From positions 1-39,008 of the forward strand of contig CAMAQB010000026.1 of NCBI GenBank assembly GCA_945860285.1: DNA of 39,008 nt. Reading direction: 5' to 3'. Within the stretch, counting starts at the first letter, position 1, and every line of letters begins with the position of its first letter. A model generated the notes under the pieces. That model made no database searches, was not told the DNA's origin, and saw only the letters and a list, made by a program, of their open reading frames with translations. The DNA comes from Akkermansia muciniphila. Lineage in GTDB: Bacteria > Verrucomicrobiota > Verrucomicrobiia > Verrucomicrobiales > Akkermansiaceae. The translations under genes were made by a program, and so were the position numbers. This document shows positions 29,149-37,240 of this stretch, in pieces.

Positions 29149-30237
29149 GTGAAGAAATTGGTCGTGGTCATTGCGTGCGGAGGAACCGGAGGACATTTGT
29201 TTCCGGGAATCGCGGTTGCGGAGGAACTCAAGTCGCGCGGACACAAACCGCTGCTGTTGATCTCGAAAAAATCCGTTGACCAAGAGGCATCGCGGAAATA
29301 CGGCGATCTGGAATTCGCGGTGATTCCCGCTGTCGCCAAGCCGTCGACCTTTTCCCCGCAGATGATTCCTTTCCTCTGGAAAATGTGGGGCACGATCCGG
29401 CATTGCAAAAAAATCCTGCGCGCCCACAAGGCCGACATGGTGATCGGCATGGGCGGATTCACCTCGCTGCCGCCGGTGTATGCCGGCCATGCGCTCGGCC
29501 TGAAGACCTTTGTGCACGACTCCAACGCCCTGCCAGGCAAGGCGAACATGCTGACGGCGCGATGGTGCACCAAGGTGTTTGTCGGGATGAAAGAAGCGCT
29601 TGTGCATTTCAAGGGGCGCGACGTGGTGGTCACCGGCACACCGGTGCGCGGCGAGATGAAACAGGAGCCTTCGCGGGATGCGGCGGCGGAAAAATTCGGC
29701 CTCGATGCGCAACGGCCGATCCTTGTGGTCATGGGTGGCAGCCAGGGAGCCCAACGATTGAATGCGTTGGTCGCGGAGGCATTCGATCAATTTCCGGCGG
29801 GAACGCAGGTTCTGCATGTGGCTGGCAGTGCCGATGAGGCACGCGTGCGCGAGCAGTCCGCCGGGCGCAAGGGTTACGTGGTGCTCGGATTCTGCGACGA
29901 CATGGCGTCGGTCTATGCGGTGGCGGACCTGATCTTGTGTCGCGCCGGAGCGTCCAGCATGACCGAACTGGCGCATGCCGGCCTGCCGTCGATTCTGGTG
30001 CCTTATCCCTATGCAGCCGATGACCATCAAACCAAAAACGCGGAGGTGTTCGCCGCAGCGGGAGCGGCGAAAATGGTGCAACAGGCGGACCTCGATGCCT
30101 CCGGGCTGGCCGCGATGGTCGATGCAATCATCGGCCACGGAGAGGTCGTTATGAAAATGAAATCCGCGGCCCGGTCTCTCGATGTGCCCGATGCCGCCGC
30201 GCGGGTTTGTTCGGCGATGGAGGCAGCTTTGAAATAA
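29149..30237 (+). CDS. murG: UDP-GlcNAc transferase of lipid II synthesis, MurG
   Basis: A 362-residue glycosyltransferase that adds N-acetylglucosamine to lipid I on the inner face of the membrane, giving lipid II. Family motifs are the first glycine loop C-G-G-T-G-G-H-L-F-P-G-I-A-V-A (about 10-24), I-G-M-G-G-F-T-S-L-P-P, H-D-S-N-A-L-P-G-K-A-N, the G-G-S-Q-G-A-Q loop and the donor-site region C-R-A-G-A-S-S-M-T-E-L-A...P-Y-P-Y-A-A-D-D-H-Q-T-K-N-A. It starts with GTG. It is the first gene of the division and cell-wall run and ends 37 bases before murC-murB. The usual neighbours ftsW, murD and mraY are not upstream in this window. Confidence 0.97.
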   Translation: MKKLVVVIACGGTGGHLFPGIAVAEELKSRGHKPLLLISKKSVDQEASRKYGDLEFAVIPAVAKPSTFSPQMIPFLWKMWGTIRHCKKILRAHKADMVIGMGGFTSLPPVYAGHALGLKTFVHDSNALPGKANMLTARWCTKVFVGMKEALVHFKGRDVVVTGTPVRGEMKQEPSRDAAAEKFGLDAQRPILVVMGGSQGAQRLNALVAEAFDQFPAGTQVLHVAGSADEARVREQSAGRKGYVVLGFCDDMASVYAVADLILCRAGASSMTELAHAGLPSILVPYPYAADDHQTKNAEVFAAAGAAKMVQQADLDASGLAAMVDAIIGHGEVVMKMKSAARSLDVPDAAARVCSAMEAALK

Positions 30238-30274: not shown

Positions 30275-32578
30275 ATGCACATCAAGGACTGGAGCATACG
30301 CATCACCCAACGGGAAAAACCACTGCGGGTGCACTTGATCGGTGTGGCGGGTTCGGGCATGAGCGGGCTCGCGTTGTTGTTGTTGGAAATGGGTCACCAG
30401 GTCAGCGGGTCCGACCGCGTGACCAGTGCGGAGACCGAACGACTCCAGGGGCTCGGCCTGCGTTTTTCCTCGCCCCACACCGCCGAGGCCGTGCGCGAGG
30501 CCGATCTCGTGGTGTTCAGCTCGGCAATCCGCCCCGAAAATCCCGCCTTCGCCGAGGCGCTGGCACGGAATATTCCTCTACTCCGCCGCGCCGAATGTCT
30601 GGCTGCGATTCTCAACACCAAAAAAGGCGTGGTGGTCAGTGGAACCCATGGAAAGACCACCACCTCGTCGATGACCGCCCACATCCTGCGCGAGGCGGGC
30701 ATGCGGCCCAGTCATTATGTCGGCGCGGAAATTCCGATCCTCGGCAGCAACGCCCACTGGGAGGAAGCGGGGGAATACATGGTCGCGGAAGGCGACGAAA
30801 GCGACGGCACCCTGGTTCTCTACGAACCGGTGTGCTCGCTGGTGCTCAATGTCGAAGCCGAACATCTCGATCACTATCGCGACATCGATCACATCTGCGA
30901 GGTGTTCGCCACCTTGTTGGATCAAACGCGCGGACGCATCGTTTATTGCAAGGAATGCCCCGTCGCCACCCGGTTGCAAAGTGGTCGCGATCACGCGGTG
31001 TCCTACGGCTGGCAGGACGCGGATTATGTCGCCGAAGACCTGCGCGAACTGCGCGGCTCCAGCGCCTTCCGGGTGATGCGTGGCGGCGAGTTGCTCGGCG
31101 ACATCGAACTCGGAATTCCCGGTCGGCACAACGTGCTCAACGCGCTGGCCGCCATCGCCGTCGCCGATGGAGTCGGTGCGAATTTCGCCCTCATCGCCCG
31201 GGCCTTGTCGACTTTTGCCGGGGCGAAGAGGCGATTCGAGACCAGGTATCTTTCGGCGAACTACCGCATCGTTGATGACTACGGCCATCATCCCACCGAG
31301 CTGGCGGCGACCCTGCAAACCGCCCGATCCCTGAAACCCGTTCGCGTGGTGGTTCTTTTTCAACCGCACCGCTACTCGCGGACCCAGGCGCTGGCCGATG
31401 ATTTCGGTCGGTCCTTGCAGGCGGCGGATGAAGTTTTCATCACGGATGTGTATGCCGCAAGCGAGAAACCGATTGAGGGAGTGAGCGGGGTGACGTTGGT
31501 CGAGGCGATGAAACGCCACGGCGACATCAAGGTCACGTCCGTGCCTGATTTGAGCATCGCGCACCACCAGGTGGGCAATGCGCTGCAACCGGGCGACCTG
31601 CTGATCACGCTGGGTGCAGGCAATGTTCACGAAGCGGGAACCCGGATCGCGGATGATTTGAAAATTCTCGAGGAAATGCTGCGGCTGGTGCCCGAGGGCG
31701 ACATCGAGGGAAAACTCTACGAGCCGATGCGCCGCCACACCACCATGTTGGTGGGAGGACCGGCGCAGTTTTGGCTGGAACCTCATACGTTCGAGGCCTT
31801 CGCGGCCTGCGTCGGCTATTGCCGGGAGCGCGGCATCGCCGTGCGAGTGGTCGGGCGCGGCTCCAACCTGCTGGTCCGGGATGGCGGCATTCGCGGTGCG
31901 GTGATTCATCCGACCGGTGGCGTATTTTCCGCCGTGCGCGTGGAGGGTGACACAGTCATCGCCGGTGTCGGGGCACGCTTGAAAAAAGTCGCAAGTGCGG
32001 CTCAAAGCGCGGGGATCGGTGGCTTTGAGTGGATGGAGGGCATTCCCGGCAATGTCGGTGGAGCCCTGCGCATGAATGCCGGTGCGATGGGGGTGGAAAT
32101 GTTCGACCAGGTGGTGAGTCTCACATTTCTTGATGAGGACGGCGAAATCCGCACGCGTCAGCGCGACGAGATCACCGCGGAATACCGCAACGTCGGCGAG
32201 CTGCGACGCAATTTCGCCCTGGAGGTTGTGCTGTCGGGGACTCCCGATTCGAAAGAAAACATCCAACGTCGCTGGGATGAATCAAGGGCCAAGCGCCAAA
32301 AAACGCAACCGATTGCCGCCAGTGCCGGATGCATGTTTAAAAACCGCGAACTCATTCCCGCAGGCAAACTGGTCGATGAAATGGGCCTCAAGGGATGCCG
32401 GGTCGGCCATGCCGAAGTTTCCGCCATCCACGGAAATTTCATCGTCAACACCGGCGGTGCGAAAACCGCCGACGTGCTGGCCTTGGTGGAACAAATCCGC
32501 GACAAGGCAAGGGCTGAACGAGGCATCGAAATGGAGATGGAGGTCAAGGTCATCGGGGAGGACGATTACACATTCTAA
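30275..32578 (+). CDS. MurC-MurB fusion: UDP-MurNAc-alanine ligase and UDP-MurNAc dehydrogenase
   Basis: One 767-residue frame joins two enzymes that act in succession. Residues 1 to about 463 are MurC: V-H-L-I-G-V-A-G-S-G-M-S-G (19-31), P-loop G-T-H-G-K-T-T-T (about 123-130), E-G-D-E-S-D-G, and D-D-Y-G-H-H-P-T-E. It joins L-Ala to UDP-MurNAc. Residues from about 470 are MurB, the FAD enzyme making UDP-MurNAc: T-T-M-L-V-G-G-P-A, G-R-G-S-N-L-L-V-R-D-G-G (about 525-536), G-I-P-G-N-V-G-G-A-L-R-M-N-A-G. At the proton-donor site, where most MurB have Ser (G-S-x-F-K-N), this one has Cys686 (S-A-G-C-M-F-K-N). Fusions of these two are, as I recall, found in Verrucomicrobia. The frame ends 8 bases before ddl. 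No Shine-Dalgarno is seen. Confidence 0.96.
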   Translation: MHIKDWSIRITQREKPLRVHLIGVAGSGMSGLALLLLEMGHQVSGSDRVTSAETERLQGLGLRFSSPHTAEAVREADLVVFSSAIRPENPAFAEALARNIPLLRRAECLAAILNTKKGVVVSGTHGKTTTSSMTAHILREAGMRPSHYVGAEIPILGSNAHWEEAGEYMVAEGDESDGTLVLYEPVCSLVLNVEAEHLDHYRDIDHICEVFATLLDQTRGRIVYCKECPVATRLQSGRDHAVSYGWQDADYVAEDLRELRGSSAFRVMRGGELLGDIELGIPGRHNVLNALAAIAVADGVGANFALIARALSTFAGAKRRFETRYLSANYRIVDDYGHHPTELAATLQTARSLKPVRVVVLFQPHRYSRTQALADDFGRSLQAADEVFITDVYAASEKPIEGVSGVTLVEAMKRHGDIKVTSVPDLSIAHHQVGNALQPGDLLITLGAGNVHEAGTRIADDLKILEEMLRLVPEGDIEGKLYEPMRRHTTMLVGGPAQFWLEPHTFEAFAACVGYCRERGIAVRVVGRGSNLLVRDGGIRGAVIHPTGGVFSAVRVEGDTVIAGVGARLKKVASAAQSAGIGGFEWMEGIPGNVGGALRMNAGAMGVEMFDQVVSLTFLDEDGEIRTRQRDEITAEYRNVGELRRNFALEVVLSGTPDSKENIQRRWDESRAKRQKTQPIAASAGCMFKNRELIPAGKLVDEMGLKGCRVGHAEVSAIHGNFIVNTGGAKTADVLALVEQIRDKARAERGIEMEMEVKVIGEDDYTF

Positions 32579-32586
32579 CAAAAATT

Positions 32587-33504
32587 ATGGACAAGAACTT
32601 GTTGATTGCCGTGCTGATGGGAGGTCCGGGGTCGGAACGCGAGGTTTCACTCGCCTCCGGGGCCGCTGTGGTGAAGGCGTTGCGGGACGAGGGCTGCCGG
32701 GCCGAAGCGGTGGATGTCCACGGCCGTGAAATCCATCTGCCGCAGGGCACCGCGCTGGCATTCAATGTGATCCACGGAACATTTGGGGAAGATGGGACGT
32801 TGCAGGAATTGTTAGAGAAACGGGGCGTTCCCTACACCGGGGCCGGAGTCGCCAGCAGTCGTGTTGCCTTTGACAAAAACCTCGCGAAGAAAAAATTCAT
32901 CGATGCAGGCGTGCCGACACCGCGTGCGGAAATCGTCGATGTCTCGTCCGGTGTGCGATTGCCGGAAATGGCCGTGCCTTTCGTGGTCAAACCACCTCGT
33001 GAGGGTTCGAGCGTGGGTGTGCACATCGTGCTCAAAGCCGAAGACGCGATGGCGGCCATGGAGGATGCAGCCCGTTATGGCAATGACATTCTAGTCGAGC
33101 AGTACGTGGCCGGAAAGGAACTGACCGTGGGCATTCTCGATGGCGAGGCGCTGCCAATTGTTCACATCGCTCCGCGCAGCGGGTTCTATGACATGAGCAA
33201 CAAGTACCCGTGGATGAGCGGCGGCCAAGGCAGCGATTATTATTGTCCGGCCGATCTCGATGAAGCAACAACGCGCTGCGTCCAGCAAGCAGCTCTGGCG
33301 GCGCATCAGGCACTGGGCATCGAAATTTACTCGCGGGTCGACGTGCTTCTCGACGCGGACAATCGGCCCTATGTTCTCGAAGCGAATACCATCCCCGGCA
33401 TGACCGCCACAAGCTTGCTGCCAAAGGCGGCGGCGGCAAAAGGCATCGCTTTCGGGGAATTATGTTTACGAATTGCTGATATTTCACTAAAGTTGCGCTT
33501 GTAA
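32587..33504 (+). CDS. ddl: D-alanine-D-alanine ligase
   Basis: A 305-residue ATP-grasp ligase making the D-Ala-D-Ala end of the peptidoglycan stem peptide. Motifs: G-G-P-G-S-E-R-E-V-S-L-A-S-G, N-V-I-H-G-T-F-G-E-D-G-T-L-Q, F-V-V-K-P-P-R-E-G-S-S-V-G-V, and L-E-A-N-T-I-P-G-M-T. The Tyr in F-Y-D-M-S-N-K-Y corresponds to the residue that selects D-Ala over D-lactate (Tyr216 in E. coli DdlB), so D-Ala-D-Ala and vancomycin sensitivity at this step are expected. It lies between murC-murB (8 bases) and ftsQ (5 bases), clearly one transcript. Confidence 0.97.
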   Translation: MDKNLLIAVLMGGPGSEREVSLASGAAVVKALRDEGCRAEAVDVHGREIHLPQGTALAFNVIHGTFGEDGTLQELLEKRGVPYTGAGVASSRVAFDKNLAKKKFIDAGVPTPRAEIVDVSSGVRLPEMAVPFVVKPPREGSSVGVHIVLKAEDAMAAMEDAARYGNDILVEQYVAGKELTVGILDGEALPIVHIAPRSGFYDMSNKYPWMSGGQGSDYYCPADLDEATTRCVQQAALAAHQALGIEIYSRVDVLLDADNRPYVLEANTIPGMTATSLLPKAAAAKGIAFGELCLRIADISLKLRL

Positions 33505-33509
33505 AAATA

Positions 33510-34463
33510 ATGGCTCGTCGAAAAACCACATCGTACCGACCGTCGCAGCACACTCGTGTGCTGATGACCCGCGTCACGTCGCCCACGATCATTTGGTTTG
33601 CCGTTCAAAAATGTCTTTTCCGGCTGTTTTTCTGGGGGATGGTTTGTGCCGCGATCGGCGGTGCTGGTTACGGTGTCTGGTGCTACTTGCGACAGTCGTA
33701 CCTCGAAAATCCGGAATACCAGCTGCGGATCGTCAAACTGAATCTGAACAGCGTGATGAATGAAGCCGATGTCGTCCGGATTGGCGGCATTCCCCTCAAT
33801 TCGAGTATTTTCGGGGTGGATGTGGTCGGCGTCGAGCAGCGCCTCAAGGAGCAGCCGGCGATTATATCCGCCTCGGCGCGAAGGGAACTGCCCGCCACGA
33901 TCGTGGTGGAAATCCAGGAACGAATTCCTTATGCATGGATCGAATGCCCGGCGCAAAAGATGACAGCGCGAAGCCTCGAAGGCGGATTTTTGATCGACAA
34001 AAACATGCATTTGTATCCGTGTCCGCCGATGCAGTTTGATTCAGCGCTGTTTCTGCCAGTCATCGAAGTGGCCGCCGAGGAGGGCGAGTTGTTGCAGCCC
34101 GGGAAAATCATCGAAACCAAGGCGATGAAACGGGCCGTGCATCTGCTCGATATTGCCGAGAACGCCAGTCAATCGAACCTGCCGTGGATCGACCGTATCG
34201 AACCATACAACAGCTGGGCCATGAAAGTGCTGACCCGCGACGGCATCGAGGCTGTCTTCGGCCTTGAGGATCATGAACGGCAAATGGAGAATCTGCTAGT
34301 GTCGATGAAACACGCGGCGGGCAAAGGCATGAAAATTGCCGCAATCAATCTCATTCCCGAAAAAAACATTCCCGTGGTGTTGCGTTCGTCGGCCACACCG
34401 GAACCGCTCAAGGTCAAACCGAAGTCGCCACCTGGCTGGCAGGCCGCACAAGGACGGCACTAA
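33510..34463 (+). CDS. ftsQ: Cell division protein FtsQ
   Basis: A 317-residue single-pass division protein. A basic cytoplasmic N-terminus (1-35), a membrane helix (about 36-60, L-F-R-L-F-F-W-G-M-V-C-A-A-I-G-G) and a POTRA-type domain follow (about 68-140: L-R-I-V-K-L-N-L-N-S-V-M-N-E-A-D-V, L-K-E-Q-P-A-I-I-S-A-S-A-R-R-E-L-P-A-T-I-V-V-E-I-Q-E-R-I-P-Y-A-W). The P-A-T-I-V-V-E-I-Q-E-R-x-P signature is typical of FtsQ/DivIB. Its place between ddl and ftsA is the standard order. FtsQ links the ring to the septal synthases through FtsB and FtsL, which are not in this window. The C-terminal 20 residues are Pro/Lys-rich. Confidence 0.93.
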   Translation: MARRKTTSYRPSQHTRVLMTRVTSPTIIWFAVQKCLFRLFFWGMVCAAIGGAGYGVWCYLRQSYLENPEYQLRIVKLNLNSVMNEADVVRIGGIPLNSSIFGVDVVGVEQRLKEQPAIISASARRELPATIVVEIQERIPYAWIECPAQKMTARSLEGGFLIDKNMHLYPCPPMQFDSALFLPVIEVAAEEGELLQPGKIIETKAMKRAVHLLDIAENASQSNLPWIDRIEPYNSWAMKVLTRDGIEAVFGLEDHERQMENLLVSMKHAAGKGMKIAAINLIPEKNIPVVLRSSATPEPLKVKPKSPPGWQAAQGRH

Positions 34464-34488: not shown

Positions 34489-35697
34489 ATGGCGCGCGCC
34501 AGAATTCATGTGGGACTAGAGATCGGCACCAGCAAGGTTTGCATGGTGGTCGGTGAGGTTCGGTCCGATGGATCGGTGAAAATCCTCGGCCTCGGCACCA
34601 GCAAGTCCGCAGGGGTGCGGCGAGGCGAGATCAGCGACTACGCCAACACCAAGGAATGTGTGGACGATGCCCTCGTCAAAGCGGAAGAAGCGAGCGATGT
34701 GGAGATCGGCAGTGTGTTCCTGTCGGTGACCGGATCGCACATCGTCGGCATGAACAACACCGGAACCTACCGGCTGCCGGAGAATGAAAAACAAATCCAG
34801 CCGGAACATTTGCACGAGGCGAAGGAGATTGCAAAAGACGTGCACATTTCCCCGGACCACGTTTGCCTCCACAACATCCTGCGCAGCTATCGTGTGGACG
34901 GCTTCGAGCACAGCAGCAGTCCGGTCGGATTGTTCGGCAAAACCCTGGAAGTCGATTTCCATGTGGTGGCCGGCATCGGCACCCGAATCCAAAACAGCAT
35001 CAAGTGTGTCAGGGAGCTGCAGGTGGATGTCGACGATGTCGTTTTCGCGCCGATCGCCACGGCGCAGTTCGCGCTCGACCGCAGCACCCGCGAACGCGGC
35101 GCACTGCTGATCGACATCGGCGGCGGCACCACCGATTATGCGCTCTATTTGAAAGGTGCGATCGTGGCCTCGGGATGCATCCCCGCAGGTGGCGAACATG
35201 TCACCAACGACATCCACATGCTCACCGGACTGCCGTTTTCGCGGGCGGAAACTTTGAAAATCAAAGAGGGTGATGCCTCGGGCGACCAGTCACGCTCGGT
35301 CGGCGGCATCAAAATTCCCGTCGATGAAAAAGGCTTTTCGCAGCAGGAAGTGAAACGCGAGCTGCTCAATGAGGTCATCCGACAGCGCATGCTCGAAATC
35401 CTCGAACTGGTCAAAAAGCGCCTGCCTCCGGGTTTGGTCGAACAGATCGGCACCGGCGTTTTTCTCTCGGGAGGCAGCAGTCTGATGCGCGGGCTCGACG
35501 AACTCACCCACCAGGTGTTCCGCCGCGCGATCTACCGGGCCCAGGCGGCGGAAATCAGCGGTGTGCAGGCAAATTTCAAGGACCCGCAATTCGCCACCGC
35601 ACTGGGACTGATCCGCTATGCGCAGTTGGCCGATGTGGAAAAACAAAACTCTTCACCCCGTGGATTCGGCCGCATCTGGCCGTTCGGAAGAAAATAA
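34489..35697 (+). CDS. ftsA: Cell division protein FtsA
   Basis: A 402-residue actin-like ATPase that tethers FtsZ filaments to the membrane. Nucleotide-binding motifs are G-L-E-I-G-T-S-K-V (phosphate 1, about 9-17), L-I-D-I-G-G-G-T-T-D-Y-A (phosphate 2) and G-V-F-L-S-G-G-S-S-L-M-R-G (adenosine). The 1C domain sequence L-S-V-T-G-S-H-I-V-G is present. The C-terminal R-G-F-G-R-I-W-P-F-G-R-K is a short amphipathic membrane-targeting helix. It starts 25 bases after ftsQ and ends 22 bases before ftsZ. No Shine-Dalgarno precedes the ATG. Confidence 0.97.
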   Translation: MARARIHVGLEIGTSKVCMVVGEVRSDGSVKILGLGTSKSAGVRRGEISDYANTKECVDDALVKAEEASDVEIGSVFLSVTGSHIVGMNNTGTYRLPENEKQIQPEHLHEAKEIAKDVHISPDHVCLHNILRSYRVDGFEHSSSPVGLFGKTLEVDFHVVAGIGTRIQNSIKCVRELQVDVDDVVFAPIATAQFALDRSTRERGALLIDIGGGTTDYALYLKGAIVASGCIPAGGEHVTNDIHMLTGLPFSRAETLKIKEGDASGDQSRSVGGIKIPVDEKGFSQQEVKRELLNEVIRQRMLEILELVKKRLPPGLVEQIGTGVFLSGGSSLMRGLDELTHQVFRRAIYRAQAAEISGVQANFKDPQFATALGLIRYAQLADVEKQNSSPRGFGRIWPFGRK

Positions 35698-35719: not shown

Positions 35720-37240
35720 ATGATCGAATTCGTCAAAGACCCACAAAACACCATCCCCTCGTCTCTCGTCAAAATCATCGGCCTCGGCGGCGCTGGCGCA
35801 AACATGCTCGACCGCGTGGCGCTCGATGGCATGGAAGGCGCTGAAATGCTGGCTCTCAATGCCGACATCCGCACGCTCTCCGGATCGGTGGCTCCCGAAA
35901 GAATTCAACTCGGCGTCAATCTCACCAAGGGCCTCGGCACCGGCGGCGATCCGGACCTCGGTCAAAAGGTGATGCTGGAGGCCGAAAGGGCCGTGCGATC
36001 TTCGATCAAGGGCCGCAAGATCGTTTTCCTGTGCGTCGGTCTCGGCGGCGGCACCGGTTCCGGTGGCGCGCCCATCCTCACCCGCATCGCCCGCGAGGAA
36101 GGCGCGTTTGTGGTCATTTTCGCAACGATGCCCTTCGCTTTTGAAGGCCGCAGAAGACGCGAACAGGCGGAAACCGCTCTCAACGAGCTGGCGGTGCTTA
36201 GCAATGCGCTTGTGGTTTTCGACAACACCCGGATGGGCGAACTGGTGCTCGCAAAACAGGGCATTCACGAAGCGTTTTCCGCCGGCGACCGGATGATTTC
36301 GGACAGCATCAAGGCGGTCATCCGTCTGGTGATCCGCCCGGGATTGATCCACGTGGGCCTCGATGAACTGATGACCGCCCTGCGCACCACCCGCTCGCGC
36401 TGCCTGTTCGGCTCGGGCACGGCCAATGGCAAGGACCGTGCGTCGAAGGCCCTGGCGAATGCGCTTTCGAGTCCGCTGCTCGACAAGGGTGCCCTGCTCA
36501 AGGAAGCCGCCTCGGTGCTTGTCCACATCTGTGGCGGCGAGGATCTGACCCTCTATGAGATCGAACTGTTGATGCAAAAACTTTCCAAGTATGTGCCGCA
36601 AAAAGCGCACGTGCTTTTTGGAGCCGCCATCGACACCAACATGAAGGACGCGCTCAGCATCACCCTGATCAGCGCGTTGCCCGAGGAAAAACTGCAAGCC
36701 AGCTCATTCGAAGAACTGCCCGGCGAACGCGAGGCGATGGAACCCAGCGAAGGTTTCGGTTTCGATGACATGCCGCAACCCGCGCGGATTGTGGAGCCGC
36801 CCGTTGACGAAGAACCCGCCGAAAATGAAATCATTGAGGCTGTTCCGCCCGCAATGGTGGAGCAAAAGGTAGATGGCTGGGTGAATTTTCAGGAAGCAGA
36901 CGATCACGAGGTCGACCTGCCGTTTGCCGAACCCGAACAATCCGGCAGTGGGGGCGTTTTTTCTCCGCAAGCCAGCATATCGCCCGCGAGTTTTGTAATT
37001 GATGCGGCGCGCGACTTTCGCGACGCATTGAAGCCGGCAGAGCCGCTCTCCGAGGAAGAGGATGCGCTACCTCCACCCGCTGTGCTTGGTGACCTGCTGG
37101 AAAAAACCCGCATCCGCCTTGGACAAAACGACATGCTTTTCGAAGGCAGCGCCCGCGGAAAATTTGCCGACAACGAAGCCAATCTCGTCGATGGCGACGA
37201 CCTCGACATTCCGCCTTTCATGCGCAAGAAGAAGAAATGA
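35720..37240 (+). CDS. ftsZ: Divergent cell division GTPase FtsZ
   Basis: A 506-residue tubulin-like protein forming the division ring. The GTP-binding part is clear: I-I-G-L-G-G-A-G-A-N, N-A-D-I-R-T-L, G-G-G-T-G-S-G-G (109-116; the family norm is G-G-G-T-G-T-G-A) and M-P-F-A-F-E-G-R. The T7 loop, which completes the active site of the next subunit, is H211-V-G213-L-D-E216-L; the family has N-V-D-F-A-D-V. The Asn is replaced and one Asp is Gly. After about residue 310 a long acidic Pro-rich linker leads to a conserved end, L-D-I-P-P-F-M-R, and four lysines. The open frame reaches 35618, inside ftsA, but the ATG at 35720 fits the family N-terminus. It probably polymerises, with altered GTP hydrolysis (inference). 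Confidence 0.95.
   Translation: MIEFVKDPQNTIPSSLVKIIGLGGAGANMLDRVALDGMEGAEMLALNADIRTLSGSVAPERIQLGVNLTKGLGTGGDPDLGQKVMLEAERAVRSSIKGRKIVFLCVGLGGGTGSGGAPILTRIAREEGAFVVIFATMPFAFEGRRRREQAETALNELAVLSNALVVFDNTRMGELVLAKQGIHEAFSAGDRMISDSIKAVIRLVIRPGLIHVGLDELMTALRTTRSRCLFGSGTANGKDRASKALANALSSPLLDKGALLKEAASVLVHICGGEDLTLYEIELLMQKLSKYVPQKAHVLFGAAIDTNMKDALSITLISALPEEKLQASSFEELPGEREAMEPSEGFGFDDMPQPARIVEPPVDEEPAENEIIEAVPPAMVEQKVDGWVNFQEADDHEVDLPFAEPEQSGSGGVFSPQASISPASFVIDAARDFRDALKPAEPLSEEEDALPPPAVLGDLLEKTRIRLGQNDMLFEGSARGKFADNEANLVDGDDLDIPPFMRKKKK

Follow-up and report, generated by a model that had tools for sequence, protein, structure and literature searches.

The only FtsZ encoded in the window, the whole 39,008-nucleotide stretch of Akkermansia muciniphila DNA that was analyzed, is probably an ordinary, functional division protein whose GTPase half-site has been rebuilt around one retained acid, an arrangement that is typical of Verrucomicrobiales (the order of Verrucomicrobium and Akkermansia) and Chthoniobacterales. 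By sequence, the swinging, water-positioning acid of the T7 loop (Asp209 in Escherichia coli, Asp210 in Staphylococcus aureus) is Gly, and the static acid (Asp212 and Asp213, respectively) is Glu216. In addition, an acid has been gained at Asp215, the K+-binding Asn207 is His, and the K+-locking Gln47, which lies on the face of the neighboring subunit, is Arg. Residues held to be universally required for FtsZ assembly and hydrolysis are missing from the sole FtsZ of most members of the two orders. The view that this is nonetheless a working FtsZ draws on its conserved nucleotide face, evolutionary constraint, single copy and position in the dcw cluster, and on the essentiality of FtsZ in Verrucomicrobium spinosum (PMC12283558).

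The canonical catalytic site

FtsZ hydrolyzes GTP at a site completed by the T7 loop of the adjacent subunit, for which the general motif is NxDxx[D/E] (PMC12583498). In S. aureus filaments, the catalytic water is positioned by a swinging Asp210 (E. coli 209), whereas Asp213 (E. coli 212) is static and supplies the environment; Asn208 (E. coli 207) coordinates a K+ ion that Gln48 (E. coli 47) of the neighbor locks against the T7 loop, and Arg143 assists catalysis (PMC8936486). Each of the substitutions D46A, R143Q, N208L, D210N and D213N abolishes assembly of the S. aureus protein (PMC8936486), and E. coli FtsZ carrying D209C does not support division (PMC13423816). Because these canonical-site mutants fail, a wild-type FtsZ with both Gly209 and His207 needs explaining. 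Moreover, since N208L, D210N and D213N abolish assembly instead of stabilizing filaments, the window FtsZ must be compensated elsewhere, one candidate being its Arg in place of Gln47.

Verrucomicrobial FtsZs are known to be among the most divergent (PMC1845146; PMC9871819), and V. spinosum FtsZ (VerFtsZ) is described as departing from the norm at 8 positions that do not vary in other FtsZs (Yee et al., PMC1845146). A literature search, beyond whose reach Pilhofer et al. (2008) lay, returned no paper on the T7 loop of Verrucomicrobiota FtsZ and no biochemistry for any FtsZ bearing such a loop.

A single, constrained FtsZ in an ordinary dcw cluster

The ftsZ gene occupies positions 35720..37240 of the forward strand, from an ATG at 35720 to a stop codon ending at 37240, and encodes 506 amino acids: a core of approximately residues 1-325 followed by a long acidic linker. 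Domain searches place both the tubulin/FtsZ GTPase domain (PF00091, 3.3e-33) and the FtsZ_C domain (PF12327, 5.7e-22) above cut-off. Against TIGR00065, the NCBI FtsZ equivalog, the protein scores 260 bits, under a cut-off of 295.2 that is a naming threshold and no biological definition of FtsZ, and it is therefore classed as a divergent FtsZ variant. Directly upstream on the same strand lies ftsA (34489..35697; TIGR01174, 324 bits, over cut-off), preceded by ftsQ (33510..34463; POTRA_1, PF08478), the D-Ala-D-Ala ligase gene ddl (32587..33504; NF002378 and TIGR01205, over cut-off), a murC-murB fusion in one ORF (30275..32578; TIGR01082 and NF010480, over cut-off) and murG (29149..30237; TIGR01133, 265.5 bits, over cut-off). 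This is an ordinary dcw arrangement, and the murCB fusion has been described for V. spinosum too (PMC12283558).

An initial sequence-only reading had recognized the only ftsZ of the window while allowing for a second copy elsewhere. A single protein matches PF00091/PF12327 across the genome, a result that is not absolute because the assembly, at 98% completeness, is spread over 162 contigs. A catalytically dead paralogue standing beside a canonical ftsZ was considered and rejected, as this genome yielded no second, canonical copy. The AlphaFold model of residues 1-360 has a mean pLDDT of 87.6, with a moderate value of about 81 in the T7 block, and its best PDB matches are FtsZs (E about 1e-37 to 3e-37, rmsd 2.7). 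Taken as marks of an FtsZ orthologue, both domains, the GGGTG[T/S]G signature, the fold, a single copy after ftsA and the C-terminal peptide are all present.

Besides the T7 loop and site 47, further nucleotide-site residues were compared, of which the window FtsZ keeps N44, D46, G72, E139, R143, N166, F183 and D187 (S. aureus numbering); the transition-state Arg143 corresponds by alignment to Arg146, encoded at 36155..36157 (forward strand). The T4 tubulin signature, read from the ORF translation, is GGGTGSGG (36044..36067, forward strand), as the sequence-only reading had it. Its Ser, which that reading took as an oddity, is instead the published verrucomicrobial form, GGGTGSG being reported for V. 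spinosum FtsZ (PMC1845146). VerFtsZ shares with the window protein its order-level clade, this signature, a long C-terminal extension and the dcw cluster. The C-terminal D-I-P-x-F-M-R peptide with four lysines, also noted earlier, is present as DIPPFMRKKKK; with its flank it spans 37202..37237 (forward strand), is conserved in relatives and is likely the FtsA-binding tail.

Within the genus, the FtsZ core shows pN of 0.04-0.11 against pS of 0.56-0.80, and the protein is thus under strong purifying selection. This selection, the conserved nucleotide-site residues and the fact that V. spinosum cannot do without FtsZ (PMC12283558) make it very unlikely that the GTPase function is decaying while division shifts to another system, even though small-genome members of the family have much more eroded loops or no recognizable FtsZ (L051, G013 and G025; see below).

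Register and residues of the T7 loop

The T7 (catalytic) loop reads H211-V-G213-L-D215-E216-L at 36350..36370 of the forward strand, with the H211 codon at 36350-36352 and the L217 codon at 36368-36370. The ORF translation reproduces the coordinates and residues of the sequence-only reading exactly, and alignments and clade comparison place the loop likewise. It aligns without a gap to the FtsZs of E. coli (L052), Bacillus subtilis and Aquifex (PGLIHVGLDELMTAL versus PGLMNVDFADVRTVM). Relative to E. coli N207-V-D209-F-A211-D212-V, the differences are N207H, D209G, A211D and D212E, so that the losses of Asn207 and Asp209 proposed from the sequence are real. For Asp212, two counterparts had been offered, Glu216 or a shifted Asp215. 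Glu216 does occupy the site; Asp215 falls at position 211, where it is an added acid (Ala211 to Asp) and no canonical one. A shifted-loop alignment equating Asp215 with Asp212 was rejected, because neither the phylum alignment nor a comparison with any of the three reference proteins calls for a gap. Glu at 212 also fits NxDxx[D/E], which puts E216 in the canonical position and makes D212E conservative, although HVGLDE as a whole departs from the motif, only its last acid fitting.

Six other genomes of the genus carry the complete HVGLDEL loop, and variants differing by one residue occur in two further ones; this recurrence excludes chance and sequencing error. A fault of sequencing or assembly, which would reduce the unusual loop to an artifact, has practically no probability left, being refuted by independent assemblies of both genus and order. 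As judged from the alignments, the genuine departures of the window FtsZ are those at Asn207 and Asp209, together with one absent from the earlier reading: Arg51 (35870..35872, forward strand) in place of E. coli Gln47/S. aureus Gln48, the latter being the K+-locking residue in S. aureus (PMC8936486). The protein otherwise resembles the FtsZs of E. coli, B. subtilis and S. aureus in its two-domain fold, T4 signature, Arg143, Asp46, Gly72, FtsA-type tail and operon position, but differs from them in having His at 207, Gly at 209, Arg at 47, an additional Asp at 211 and Glu at 212.

A Gly209 loop across two orders

The distribution of the loop was followed in FtsZs from 56 relatives, 80 named genome records (retrieved with patterns excluding the T7 loop) and a phylum-wide draw. 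Among 132 FtsZs from Verrucomicrobiales, Chthoniobacterales and relatives of no assigned place, 131 have Gly209, in every case combined with Asp or Glu at 212. The sole exception, from the order of the window organism (L048:1104-2594, forward strand; G043), has a GGGTASG signature and a T7 loop reading RLELAQL, with Glu at 209 and Gln at 212. Alignment with FtsZs of Verrucomicrobia and other phyla upholds the non-canonical loop first noticed in the window; on the residues compared, the Gly209 loop characterizes two orders and is nothing peculiar to the window protein.

Phylum-wide, an acid stands at 212 in every one of 135 Gly209 sequences, and none of these sequences departs from D46, G72, E139, R143 or F183 (S. 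aureus numbering). At position 207 they differ, with N, R, H, K or Q. Site 47 is Arg in 116/135, and those Gly209 sequences that have Gln47, for example in Chthoniobacterales, usually have Arg at 207. Altogether, Arg or Lys is present at 47 or 207 in 131 of the 135, compared with a minority of Asp209 sequences.

Position 211 is acidic in 130/135 Gly209 sequences versus 6/109 Asp209 sequences. This association is what would be expected if the role of Asp209 had shifted by two residues within the loop, making Asp215 (E. coli 211) the catalytic acid in a new place. Such a relocation is nevertheless rather unlikely, since three Verrucomicrobium-type relatives (L044, L121 and L124) have Gly209 but carry Ala or Ser at position 211; an acid there is dispensable and hence not the sole catalyst. 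Among them, L124 is the FtsZ of a Verrucomicrobium sp., the genus of V. spinosum, and its loop, RMGIADL, differs from that of the window in lacking the acid at 211 and having Asp at 212.

A separate change concerns the S. aureus Asp97 site, which is Lys or Arg in 86/135 Gly209 sequences, including the window FtsZ. Asp97 and Arg67 of S. aureus are joined by a salt bridge at the interface, which means that another longitudinal contact is altered too.

Proposed assembly and hydrolysis with one retained acid

If the half-site has indeed been rebuilt around the 212 acid, head-to-tail filament assembly would be retained. Glu216, perhaps with help from Asp215, would polarize the catalytic water, whereas K+ would be replaced structurally at the T7/H2 contact by the Arg of site 47, or in Chthoniobacterales by Arg/Lys at 207. 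GTP hydrolysis would then continue, probably more slowly and with little K+ dependence. It counts against this account that the covariation behind its Arg-for-K+ step lies mostly within one clade.

Alternatively, hydrolysis might be strongly impaired, with assembly upon GTP binding, slow turnover and stable filaments, and with Z-ring dynamics provided via partner proteins. The loss of the water-positioning Asp would fit this, as would the 7% of GTPase activity left in E. coli D212A (PMC8142252) and the existence of natural low-GTPase FtsZs, such as that of Spiroplasma at 0.16 Pi/FtsZ/min (PMC11987601). Severe impairment is doubtful all the same, because the unbroken retention of the 212 acid (135/135) and the invariant Arg143 in Gly209 sequences suggest selection for catalysis.

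The Gly209 FtsZs offer natural controls for deciding whether an FtsZ active site depends on its swinging acid, its static acid or its K+ site. They also bear on possible routes of FtsZ loss in two related groups, Planctomycetota and Chlamydiota, and FtsZ inhibitors built on the canonical T7 loop may fail on Verrucomicrobiales and Chthoniobacterales.

Possible reciprocity in the loss of the 209 and 212 acids

The opposite loss occurs within the same phylum. In three families (f9, f14 and f16) for which the name Opitutaceae is inferred, the loop reads N-[LV]-D-F-x-[TSAQ]-L. Like the window FtsZ, these proteins are short of one member of the catalytic acid pair; unlike it, they keep Asn207 and Asp209 and have replaced Asp212 with Thr, Ser, Ala or Gln. 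Tubulins offer parallels to both types. The T7 loop of alpha-tubulin has Glu (E254) at the 212 position, as in the window, but also keeps the 209-type Asp (D251), whereas beta-tubulin keeps the 209 Asp and has no 212 acid, resembling the Opitutaceae-type loop.

Across 269 FtsZs, 153 have the acid at 212 only, 76 at 209 only, 34 at both and 6 at neither. A strict rule that the two acids are never both lost was accordingly rejected as absolute. The six sequences without either (L199, L200, L203, L207, L265 and L274) come from other parts of the phylum; they, some of which have altered T4 signatures too, are candidates for GTPase-dead FtsZs. On a maximum-likelihood tree computed without columns 209 and 212, at least 17 changes at 209 and at least 14 at 212 are required. 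A likelihood ratio test of correlated evolution favors the dependent model on the full tree (LR 19.3, p 0.0007); with the Gly209 clade thinned, p is 0.09, and an independent-pairs test of the 209/212 reciprocity is not significant. Reciprocity across Verrucomicrobiota is thus suggestive, not proven. It is a tentative possibility that a two-acid, K+-assisted site split in this phylum into single-acid versions, one using the 212 acid with Arg/Lys for K+ and the other Asp209 alone. If so, an essential, dynamic FtsZ would need one acid and no K+ once its interface had been rebuilt.

Eroded FtsZs and other tubulin homologs in the phylum

Small-genome relatives in the family of the window organism show further divergence. 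In a 1.1-Mb, 69% complete genome of genus g4 (G012), the FtsZ (L051:1601-2380, reverse strand) has an intact GGGTGSG but a T7 loop reading SIEVIQL, with Glu at 209 and Gln at 212; it may represent an intermediate of FtsZ erosion in small-genome family members. In two genomes of 1.5-1.6 Mb from genus g5 (G025 and G013), no FtsZ comes to light even with a cut-off as loose as E<=1. Directly after ftsQ-ftsA, both encode an ORF of FtsZ-like layout (L294:1-1191, reverse strand, and L302/L295), with a globular part of about 290 amino acids starting EIILLGIG, a long acidic linker and, in G013, a basic tail. This ORF lacks GGGTGTG, T7 and other nucleotide motifs, but is constrained between the two species (79% identity, pN 0.13 versus pS 0.80). 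Its match to FtsZ is weak and collinear (hmmsearch E 0.01), and a profile comparison is not significant (E 0.33, probability 0.2). Position and the collinear match suggest homology to FtsZ, and the ORF is possibly a relic that no longer binds nucleotide.

Beyond this family, two genomes of family f36 (G246 and G262; 2-3 contigs, 94-96% complete) contain no FtsZ above threshold. An FtsA-like protein is present in them, and their only tubulin-superfamily member is a distant 376-aa protein (L287, L288), which makes them candidates for an FtsZ-less or highly diverged division system. In family f4, four genomes (G041, G045, G048 and G054) encode adjacent pairs of strong tubulin-domain matches in addition to FtsZ, G045 having two such pairs approximately 220 kb apart; these pairs are probably BtubA/BtubB.
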